Shown here one piece after another: positions 59,923-62,657 of a stretch of DNA of 64,000 nt; the first letter of the stretch is position 1; every line of letters begins with the position of its first letter. Source of the DNA: Acidimicrobiales bacterium (GTDB lineage: Bacteria; Actinomycetota; Acidimicrobiia; Acidimicrobiales; AC-14). The position numbers were made by a program, and so were the translations under genes. The notes beneath the pieces were generated by a model, which was not told where the DNA came from, did not search any database, and worked only from the letters and a program-made list of their open reading frames with translations. Where the stretch lies: assembly GCA_025463925.1 (NCBI GenBank), contig JAODBK010000038.1, positions 1 to 64,000 of the forward strand, in the 5' to 3' direction.

Positions 59923-60948
59923 TCAGCGGGCGACGGCGACGCTCTGGATCGCGCTCTCTCCCCAACTCGGCAGCGCGACCGCGTGCAAGCTGCCGCGGCC
60001 GCCGCAGACGACGGTGACGAACTGCTCGGGCCGGGCGCACAGATGGACCCGCCCGCGGTCGTCGACCCGGCCCTGACGCTCGAGGATCTCGCGGTTGCCC
60101 TGCGGCCACAGCTCGATCGGCTGCCACGCGGTGCCGAGCAGGAACGACCGGAGGTCGTCGACGTCGGGGAACGCCACGCCGAACCGCTGCGCCCACACGG
60201 GGTTGATCGCCAAAACGACCTCGCCGGTGTCGGCGGTCGGCGTCAGGAACTTGTTGCCGAGCGGGAACGCCATGCTCTTGGCGACCAGCTCGAGGAGCTC
60301 GCGCGCGTCGTCGACGTGGATGTCGGCCATGGCGTGCGTTCCCTTGCCGCCGTGCACGGTGACGACCTCGTCGTCGGTGGCGAAGCCGCGCTGCACCGCG
60401 AGCGACGGCCACGGCGACTCCTCCTCCCATTCCGCGAAGCAGAGCCCGCCGGCGCGCGCCGGTTGGCCGAAGACGCTCTTCGACGTCTCCCCGACCCGCT
60501 GGCCGCCGACGTTGCGGAGCGCCAGCGCCACCGCTCGCCCGATCGTCATCGACCCGCGACCCCCGCCACCACCCATGCAGCCGTGGCTGCAGTCGATCCC
60601 GAGGCGGTGGCGCGACGGCCCGTTGACGATGATCATCGGGAACACGCTCGACGTCGTGGCCGCCAGCGCCGAGAGGTTGAACTCCGGCATCGTGATGGCT
60701 TCCAGCGCCGCGATCACGAGCGGGAACGCGTCGGGCTCGACGCCGGCCATGGCGGCGTTGACCGCCGCCTTCTCGACCGTTGCGTTGCCCATGCGGGGCG
60801 GCAAGATGCAGATGAGGTCGTCGGGCGCGTACGGCGTGGCCGCCACCAGCGCCCGCACCGCGTCCTCGGTCGGCGGCAACACCGGCAAGCCGTCGCCCCA
60901 GCCCTCCTCGAGCGACCGCGCGTAGAGCGCGCCGGCGTCGTCCGGCAC
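59923..60948 (-). CDS. large partner protein of the UGSC family selenoprotein
   Basis: A 341-residue soluble protein. I recognise the family by pattern only: ALYARSLEEGWGDGLPVLPPTEDAVRAL, then LPPRMGNATVEKAAVNAAMAGVEPDAFPLVIAALEA, FPMIIVNGPSRHRLGIDCSHGCMG, the Gly run GGGGGRGSMTIGRAVALALRNVGG and CFAEWEEESPWPSL. Members occur next to, or fused with, the small UGSC protein, as here. No catalytic function is established. Two Cys (IDCSHGCMG) could take part in redox chemistry with the selenocysteine. The GTG at 60948 lies 25 nt after the UGSC stop. A TTG at 61026 with a strong aggagg upstream would overlap the UGSC gene by 53 nt and is an alternative. Confidence 0.7.
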   Translation of the reverse strand: MPDDAGALYARSLEEGWGDGLPVLPPTEDAVRALVAATPYAPDDLICILPPRMGNATVEKAAVNAAMAGVEPDAFPLVIAALEAITMPEFNLSALAATTSSVFPMIIVNGPSRHRLGIDCSHGCMGGGGGRGSMTIGRAVALALRNVGGQRVGETSKSVFGQPARAGGLCFAEWEEESPWPSLAVQRGFATDDEVVTVHGGKGTHAMADIHVDDARELLELVAKSMAFPLGNKFLTPTADTGEVVLAINPVWAQRFGVAFPDVDDLRSFLLGTAWQPIELWPQGNREILERQGRVDDRGRVHLCARPEQFVTVVCGGRGSLHAVALPSWGESAIQSVAVAR

Positions 60949-60973: not shown

Positions 60974-61516
60974 TCAGTGCTTGGCGCCGAGGAGCTGAAC
61001 GAGTTGCGGGTACGCGCGCTCAGCAATGCCCCTCACCTCCTCGTCGGGCCGGCCCTCGAGCGGGAAGGGGAGGACGAGGGTGCGCAGGGCGCTGTGCTTG
61101 CGCAGCCGGGCCAGCTCCGATGCGATGCGGGTGAACTCGGAGGTCACGACGAGCACGACCGGCTTGGCCAGGTCCTCCACCACCACGGCGTCGTGGACAC
61201 TCCACGACGTGCACGAGCCTCAATTGCCGAGGCCGACGACCGCGCAGTCGACGAGGCGGGCCCACTCGTCGAGATCGGCGCGCGTCTGCTCCCCGGCGTC
61301 GCCGACCCGCTCCCCGGTCCAATGGACCTGCGGGATCGCGCCGTCCGCGGCGAGCAGGCGTTGCCACTCCTCGACCACGGCAATGTAGGAGCGCCAGGCG
61401 TGGTCGAGGCGCAGCCCGACGACGACGCCGGTGAGCGGTCCGCCGACGTCGAAGGTCGGCGCGACCTCGTCGTCGTCGAACGTCACCCGCGGGTCGAGGA
61501 TCTGCACCACCGTCAC
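60974..61516 (-). CDS. UGSC family selenoprotein (in-frame TGA)
   Basis: A 180-residue protein if TGA at 61222-61220 is read as selenocysteine (Sec99). The part before the TGA (TVVQILDPRVTF ... DEWARLVDCAVVGLGN) and after it (GSCTSWSVHDAVVVEDLAKP, VVLVVTSEFTRIASELAR, LVLPFPLEGRPDEEVRGIAERAYP) is in the same frame, both sides coding, and joins at the motif U-G-S-C-T that gives this family its name. After the TGA come 10 nt, then a perfect 9-bp stem with loop GUG (61189-61209), the position expected for a bacterial SECIS. The thiol-selenol pair Sec99/Cys102 suggests a redox role, unproven. GTG at 61516 or ATG at 61534 are possible starts. Selenocysteine genes (selA, selB, selC, selD) must lie elsewhere. 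Confidence 0.82.
61189..61209 (-). promoter_or_regulatory. SECIS-like hairpin downstream of TGA
   Basis: On the mRNA sense (minus strand) cgtcgtgga pairs fully with tccacgacg around the loop gtg. The stem begins 10 nt after the TGA, close to the 11 nt in E. coli fdhF. The GU in the loop is a known SelB contact. The hairpin is within the coding sequence, as in other bacterial selenoproteins. Confidence 0.75.
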
Positions 61517-61520
61517 GGTA

Positions 61521-62657
61521 CTGTCCCGGCCCATCGGTGCTCTCGACGGCCTCCGCGTGCTCGACCTCGCCAACCTCGCCTCGGCGCCGCAGGTGCCGGC
61601 GATCCTCGGCGACTTCGGCGCCGACGTGGTGAAGGTCGAGCCTCCTGGCGGCGACCCGCTGCGGGGCATGGGCCAGCAACGCGACGGGCAGTCTCTGGTG
61701 TTCGCCTTCGTGAACCGCAACAAACGCGGCATCACGCTCGATCTCGCCACTGACGATGGACAGGACGAGTTCCGCCGGCTCGTAGCGGTGGCCGACGTCG
61801 TCGTCGAGAACGCGCCGGCGCGGGTGCAGCGCGCCTGGCGCTGCACCTGGGACGACCTGCACCCGCTCAACCCCGGCTTGATCCTCGCGAGCGTGAGCTG
61901 TTACGGGCAGGACGGGCCGTACGCCGACCGGCCGGGTGCCGGCACGCTGGCCGAGGCGTTCGCCGGACTCACCCACATGACGGGCGACGCCGACGGCCCG
62001 CCGATGCTGCCTTCGGTCCCGCTCGGCGACCTGCTCACCGGCACGGTGGGCGCTCTCGGGGTGCTGGCCGCGCTGCACCATCGGCACCGCACCGGTGAAG
62101 GTCAGCACGTCGACGTCAGCATGTACGAGCCCGTGCTGCAGTTGCTCGGCGTCACGATCGCGTCGTGGCATCCGGGTGACCCGCCGCCCCACCGCCATGG
62201 CTCGCGCGTCCCGGGCGGCGTGCCCCGCAACGTCTACCGCACCGGCGACGGGCAGTGGATCGTCGTCTCGGGTACCACCGACGCGCAGGTCGGGCGCCTG
62301 CTCGGGATCCTCGGCCTCGACACCGACGACGGTCGCGCGAGGTTCGGCGCCTCGCCGGCCCGCCTCCGGGTGGCCGACGAGCTGGACTCGCTCGTCGCCC
62401 GGTGGATCGCCGACCGCGACCGCGACGACGTGTTGGCCACGTTGCTCGACGCGCGCATCCCGGCGGCGCCGGTGCACGACCTGGCCGCGCTCCTCGGCGA
62501 TCCGCAGGTGCAGGCCCGCGGCGACGTCGTCACCGTCGACGGCGTGCCGATGGTCGCGCCCGCGCCGCGCCTGGGCCGCACGCCCGGTGCCATCACGTCG
62601 TCGGGCCCAGGCCTCGGCGCCCACAACGACGAGGTCCGCCGGGACTGGCTCACCTGA
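61521..62657 (+). CDS. class III CoA-transferase (CaiB/BaiF family)
   Basis: A CoA-transferase of about 378 residues. It has LDGLRVLDLANLASAPQVPAILGDFGADVVKVEPPGGDPLRGMGQQ, the conserved start with the ADV-K-V-E motif, then LVFAFVNRNKRGITLDLAT and the catalytic Asp region LTHMTGDADGPPMLPSVPLGDLLTG (the usual G-D-x-x-G-P appears as TGDADGPP). End VDGVPMVAPAPRLGRTPGAITSSGPGLGAHNDEV is typical. The start is not settled: the first in-frame ATG (61431) would overlap the divergent selenoprotein by 86 nt, so the CTG at 61521 or GTG at 61557 are more likely. It may activate the substrate of the selenoprotein or LLM neighbour as CoA ester; this is inference from position. Confidence 0.8.
   Translation: MSRPIGALDGLRVLDLANLASAPQVPAILGDFGADVVKVEPPGGDPLRGMGQQRDGQSLVFAFVNRNKRGITLDLATDDGQDEFRRLVAVADVVVENAPARVQRAWRCTWDDLHPLNPGLILASVSCYGQDGPYADRPGAGTLAEAFAGLTHMTGDADGPPMLPSVPLGDLLTGTVGALGVLAALHHRHRTGEGQHVDVSMYEPVLQLLGVTIASWHPGDPPPHRHGSRVPGGVPRNVYRTGDGQWIVVSGTTDAQVGRLLGILGLDTDDGRARFGASPARLRVADELDSLVARWIADRDRDDVLATLLDARIPAAPVHDLAALLGDPQVQARGDVVTVDGVPMVAPAPRLGRTPGAITSSGPGLGAHNDEVRRDWLT

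Follow-up and report, generated by a model that had tools for sequence, protein, structure and literature searches.

An in-frame TGA interrupts a UGSC-family gene

The window analyzed here, a 64,000-nucleotide stretch of DNA from an Acidimicrobiales bacterium, carries on its minus strand a gene of the UGSC family with a single internal TGA and, immediately downstream, a second gene that we refer to as the partner (Table 1). The UGSC frame remains coding past the TGA, and translation across it reads ...VDCAVVGLGN-U-GSCTSWSVHDAVVVEDLAKP..., the TGA being codon 99 and the cysteine of the motif residue 102 when counted from the GTG start; an in-frame ATG at 61534 could serve as the start equally well. 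The original prediction, made from the letters of the window, had described a frame that is coding on both sides of this TGA, followed 10 nt later by a perfect 9-bp stem with a GUG loop, and both were found again exactly where it had placed them. It had also anticipated that gene calling would give a shortened 5′ fragment or just the tail of 70 residues; ordinary ORF listing yields an upstream fragment ending with the TGA (61870-61220) and the tail (61186-60974). A divergent CoA-transferase III gene lies on the plus strand (61431-62657), its 5′ end meeting or overlapping that of the UGSC gene.

Table 1. Features of the UGSC locus, in window coordinates.
Feature	Position	Strand	Remarks
UGSC-family selenoprotein gene	60974..61516	-	180 aa with Sec99 from GTG 61516; matches PF24696
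In-frame TGA, read as Sec99	61220..61222	-	TGA or Cys at the aligned column in homologues
Bacterial SECIS hairpin in the mRNA	61189..61209	-	9 bp, loop GUG; conserved core of 8 bp (61208-61190)
Cys102 codon, putative resolving cysteine of the UxxC motif	61211..61213	-	Conservation in 62 homologues
Partner gene	59923..60948	-	About 341 aa from GTG 60948; 25 nt past the UGSC stop; co-located with UGSC genes

When U and C were treated as equivalent, the product of 180 aa matched the Pfam UGSC family (PF24696) at 101.2 bits against a cut-off of 25, with 171 of 172 positions covered, and it bears the [U/C]-G-S-C motif of that family as U99-G-S-C102, in agreement with the family proposed at the outset. 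Its score against the NCBIfam equivalog NF041046 (UGSC_fam) was 75.2 bits, under the curated cut-off of 125; the product is thus homologous but outside the bounds of the equivalog, and we assign it to the Pfam family only. Identity to 61 homologues ranged from 18 to 49%, and conservation of Cys102 was at least 90% in the set of 62. An ocean metagenome study describes a UGSC-containing protein and reports an Unknown_1 domain fused to UGSC (PMC2398784). The gene has in common with the family (PF24696, NF041046) the U-G-S-C motif, a full-length domain match and a clear preponderance of Sec over Cys. It differs in falling into a divergent subgroup under the NCBIfam cut-off (75 vs. 125 bits), and in being presented here together with an adjoining partner gene. 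Judged by its sequence, the gene adds a new, divergent member to a known selenoprotein family. Since it scores under the NCBIfam cut-off, standard annotation pipelines would probably overlook it.

The TGA column is conserved as TGA or Cys in homologues

We compared the Sec99 column in two samples. The first consisted of 44 loci from the same order, picked from UGSC matches with every listed Cys locus included; the codon is TGA in 38 of these and TGC or TGT in 6. The second comprised 80 named genome loci found via the partner gene. Among the 76 UGSC genes at these loci, 69 have TGA and 7 a Cys codon (TGC/TGT), and the taxa represented are Acidimicrobiia, Chloroflexi, Proteobacteria, Myxococcales, Rokubacteria, Poribacteria and others. 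The homologue alignment called for by the original prediction therefore gives TGA or, in a minority, Cys at this column, with proteins that extend beyond it rather than stopping there. Among cultivable carriers, Blastococcus endophyticus (L113) has the Cys form and Vineibacter terrae (L142) the Sec form. The closest homologue found, L071, is 68% identical upstream of the TGA and 60% identical downstream, dN being lower than dS in both parts; selection for the protein continues past the TGA.

These data bear directly on the possibility that the TGA is a true stop, the product of a nonsense mutation or a sequencing error, and that the 3′ remainder is an ORF of its own or one in decay. TGA does act as a normal stop in this genome. 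However, all four UGSC paralogues of the genome have TGA at this codon, nearly all homologues across several phyla have TGA at this position and the others Cys, and dN stays below dS both upstream and downstream of it. We will see below that the TGA is also followed by a covarying hairpin and that the genome encodes a full Sec pathway. A true stop is, accordingly, very improbable in our view.

The genome encodes a complete selenocysteine pathway

The source genome (4.08 Mb in 119 contigs, 96.7% complete) contains a tRNA-Sec that scored 68 bits against a cut-off of 47 and has the anticodon tca (UCA) according to ARAGORN. It also contains selD (321 bits) and, above its cut-off, selB, directly adjacent to the 3′ half of selA, a gene that is split by a contig break and whose other half lies at the end of a second contig. 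With these two pieces at contig ends, the pathway (selA, selB, selC and selD) is complete, and the four genes that had been proposed as the first thing to look for, selC and selB among them, are all present. The genome has four UGSC loci, each with exactly one in-frame TGA, always in the same column.

The association also holds across 148 genomes of the same order, among which UGSC occurs in 68 and tRNA-Sec in 87: a tRNA-Sec was found in 62 of the 68 UGSC genomes vs. 25 of the 80 genomes without UGSC (Fisher's test, P = 2e-14). Among the six UGSC genomes without a detected tRNA-Sec, one (G053) has Cys copies only and three are assemblies that are at most 84% complete. No tRNA-Sec was detected in G047 and G119 either, both estimated at 95-96% complete and possessing UGSC genes with an in-frame TGA.

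An in-frame TGA in a conserved gene would also be expected under an altered code in which TGA stands for Trp or Cys genome-wide. However, neighbouring ORFs use TGA as their stop and translate normally with table 11, the TGA column alternates with Cys and not with Trp, the tRNA-Sec with its UCA anticodon is present, and a hairpin of the kind described below follows only this TGA in the window (E < 0.05). We give a genome-wide change of code practically no credence.

A covarying hairpin follows the UGA

The hairpin, CGUCGUGGA-GUG-UCCACGACG in the mRNA, has 9 bp and starts 10 nt past the UGA. The published model of bacterial SECIS elements (bSECIS) has a loop of 3-9 nt with a G in the first two positions, a stem of 4-16 bp, a UGA-to-loop distance of 16-37 nt and a minimum free energy of -7.5 kcal/mol or lower (PMC13188914). 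The hairpin lies within all of these bounds, with a GUG loop that has its G first, 9 bp, 19 nt and -14.6 kcal/mol. This stability is not unusual in GC-rich DNA, the z score against dinucleotide shuffles of a 58-nt stretch being -0.29, and on this ground we rejected thermodynamic stability as proof of a SECIS element; 1.7% of synonymous recodings fold equally well. The stability being unremarkable, it is covariation that carries the argument.

With positions numbered from the U of the UGA, bases 15-22 pair with bases 26-33 to form the conserved stem, which encloses a loop containing GU. In 95 distinct Sec genes, 87% of cells are paired, vs. 16-47% when the register is slid, and changes are seen on both sides in seven of the eight pairs. 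The covariation score of these genes was 0.272 vs. 0.117 for shuffled data, and none of 500 shuffles reached the score of the genes. Two further tests are independent of the protein sequence. Position 27, the synonymous third base of a Val codon, tracks position 21 in 48 of 48 genes (TGG-GTC, TGC-GTG), and positions 18 and 30, both synonymous, covary such that A always occurs with T (Fisher's test, P = 1e-6, where P values at the synonymous hairpin sites take no account of kinship among the sequences). The Ser codon in the loop is AGT in 70 of 74 cases.

The Cys homologues mostly do not have the hairpin: the median energy is -12.2 kcal/mol in Sec genes vs. -4.3 kcal/mol in 13 Cys genes (P = 9e-7). 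The hairpin of one homologue of the same family (L069) was poor in the fixed window used for folding. At E < 0.05, a covariance model of the hairpin had a single match in the window, at the TGA studied here (1.2e-15), and its matches in the whole genome were the four UGSC genes only. An Rfam search produced chance matches only.

The bSECIS of E. coli fdhF likewise forms a hairpin directly past the UGA and has G23-U24 in its apical loop, at the same place as here, as we checked on its sequence. The fdhF stem carries a bulged U, whereas the stem described here is uninterrupted, and its loop has 3 nt. The SECIS-like hairpin first noticed in the letters of the window is thus one that both follows the published rules and covaries in homologues. 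Together with the Sec pathway genes and the TGA/Cys column, it upholds the reading of the TGA as Sec. These comparisons show the UGA of the first gene to be one that would be decoded as Sec via SelB and the bSECIS hairpin directly downstream.

The hairpin also appears to shape the protein at UGSC codons 103-109. Residue 105 is Trp or Cys in Sec genes, and Tyr or Ala in several Cys homologues of the order.

UGSC genes are accompanied by a partner gene

For 119 out of 120 UGSC genes, a relative of the partner gene was located no more than 1.5 kb away on the same strand, upstream in some cases and downstream in others; the lone UGSC gene without a partner ends at a contig edge. It should be noted that the named loci were found via the partner and are therefore biased for this count, but the adjacency is also seen in 43 of the 44 loci that were chosen by UGSC alone. 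Among the 148 genomes of the order, 66 of the 68 with UGSC carry the partner, as does 1 of the 80 others. These counts show UGSC and the downstream gene to be, as far as gene order can tell, a two-gene unit in which the partner, from an unnamed family, is obligate. Taking the selenoprotein reading and the two-gene unit jointly, our confidence is high.

Although about 45% of the genomes sampled from the order contain the partner family (about 340 aa; loci L026-L033 and L063-L182), no Pfam or NCBIfam model exists for it. Sequence and profile searches with the partner found no Pfam, NCBIfam or PDB relative. Its structure was predicted with a pLDDT of 92, and a fold search with this model gave no convincing match. 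The best hits, class I fumarate hydratase (Foldseek E-value 1.9e-4, TM 0.24) and chorismate mutase (Z 5.7), were rejected as too weak. No other family recurs among the neighbours of UGSC genes except TctC solute receptors (5 of 38 neighbours). With no conservation beyond the partner, the gene neighbourhood offers no clue to the substrate.

UGSC resembles the Sec domain of GrdB and PrdB

The predicted structure of UGSC (pLDDT 94) is five-stranded, alternating and Rossmann-like, and Sec is located where strand 3 ends (E32-37, H, E61-66, H, E91-97, Sec, H, E120-125, H, E145-149, H). In a fold search, it matched numerous Rossmann- or flavodoxin-like folds equally well. GrdB, protein B of glycine/sarcosine/betaine reductase, and PrdB, of D-proline reductase, were absent from the fold-search lists for the UGSC and partner models, and PDB sequence searches with the two profiles gave nothing meaningful.

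The literature calls the family thioredoxin (Trx)-like (PMC2398784; PMC13188914). The predicted model does not have the Trx topology around UxxC, showing instead beta-alpha alternation with Sec after the third strand, and so lends the Trx-like label no support. The gene might nevertheless encode a selenoprotein that is a general thiol oxidoreductase of thioredoxin-like fold, acting in peroxide, disulfide or metal redox reactions, as the literature lists UGSC. Such an enzyme would account for the UxxC motif, but it is hard to reconcile with a confident model of alternating parallel strands and helices, not in Trx order, or with structural matches that are Rossmann- or flavodoxin-like. The sequence profiles point to GrdB/PrdB instead, and an obligate partner of 340 aa suits a multi-subunit enzyme. 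We consider a general thiol oxidoreductase unlikely.

The kinship with GrdB/PrdB emerged from profile-profile comparison (hhalign), for which the GrdB/PrdB proteins were extended past their own Sec codon. The UGSC profile matched theirs with a probability of 94% and an E-value of 9.5e-8 (for a single target, as in all hhalign comparisons here), with Sec aligned on Sec, vs. at most 0.5% for reversed, unrelated and column-shuffled control profiles. A GrdB-only profile gave 42% and a PrdB-only profile 82%. The GrdB model TIGR01917 was matched by 19 of 62 UGSC proteins (best E-value 2.1e-6), the matches covering the Sec-bearing C-terminal part of GrdB (model positions 327-406, for example). The scores stay below the family cut-off, with UGSC proteins reaching at most about 26 bits vs. 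602. A search of the genome with PF07355 had no match. The comparisons strongly indicate that UGSC is a stand-alone version of the GrdB/PrdB Sec domain, Rossmann-like and with Sec ending the third strand.

In GrdB/GrdF/GrdH (PF07355, TIGR01917) and PrdB, Sec occupies the same place in a related domain, and UGSC and GrdB/PrdB have in common U-x-x-C/G-T..., followed by E-x-x-GIPT. UGSC, by contrast, consists of one domain of about 175 aa and has no counterpart of the GrdB N-terminal domain. As far as searched, the partner shows no kinship with the known Grd/Prd subunits, and the carriers of UGSC are not confined to amino-acid-fermenting anaerobes but include Acidimicrobiia, Chloroflexi and Proteobacteria.

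Among GrdB-/PrdB-like proteins from other genomes of the phylum (L184-L202), all those whose frame was followed past the stop have an in-frame TGA exactly at the end of PF07355. With the TGA at the model end, PF07355 and many database entries appear to be truncated at the Sec codon.

A possible Sec-dependent reductive lyase

In GrdB/PrdB, the substrate-binding Sec subunit releases an amine (PMC13188914). By analogy, the two-gene operon would encode a Sec-dependent enzyme in which Sec99, as a selenolate, attacks a substrate held jointly with the partner subunit, at an electrophilic carbon or a leaving group. We infer that Sec99 and Cys102 form a redox pair. Cys102 would resolve the product as a Sec-S bridge, to be reduced by a cellular thiol system, and overall the substrate would be cleaved reductively, as in GrdB/PrdB, but with none of the accessory subunits known for those enzymes. 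In GrdB/PrdB, Sec attacks an amino acid bound to a pyruvoyl-type subunit (GrdE, PrdA). The partner has no solved relative, and we regard this specific GrdB-like chemistry as plausible at slightly under even odds.

Our best guess is that UGSC and its partner may constitute a two-subunit Sec-dependent reductive lyase. More broadly, and again tentatively, at a little short of an even chance, they could represent an undescribed class of such lyases, with a catalytic subunit derived from GrdB/PrdB and a new substrate-binding subunit. This class would be found in many Acidimicrobiia, Chloroflexi and Proteobacteria, often as several paralogues with different substrates.

The earlier reading of this locus included neither the obligate partner gene nor the kinship with GrdB/PrdB, and these two elements seem, compared with the published work considered here, to be what is new. 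In ocean and lake bacteria, UGSC proteins rank with the most common selenoproteins. Annotation is likely to break up or omit UGSC genes that score under the curated cut-off, such that their number is underestimated. The partner and the kinship with GrdB/PrdB provide a first concrete, testable guess at what UGSC proteins may do.
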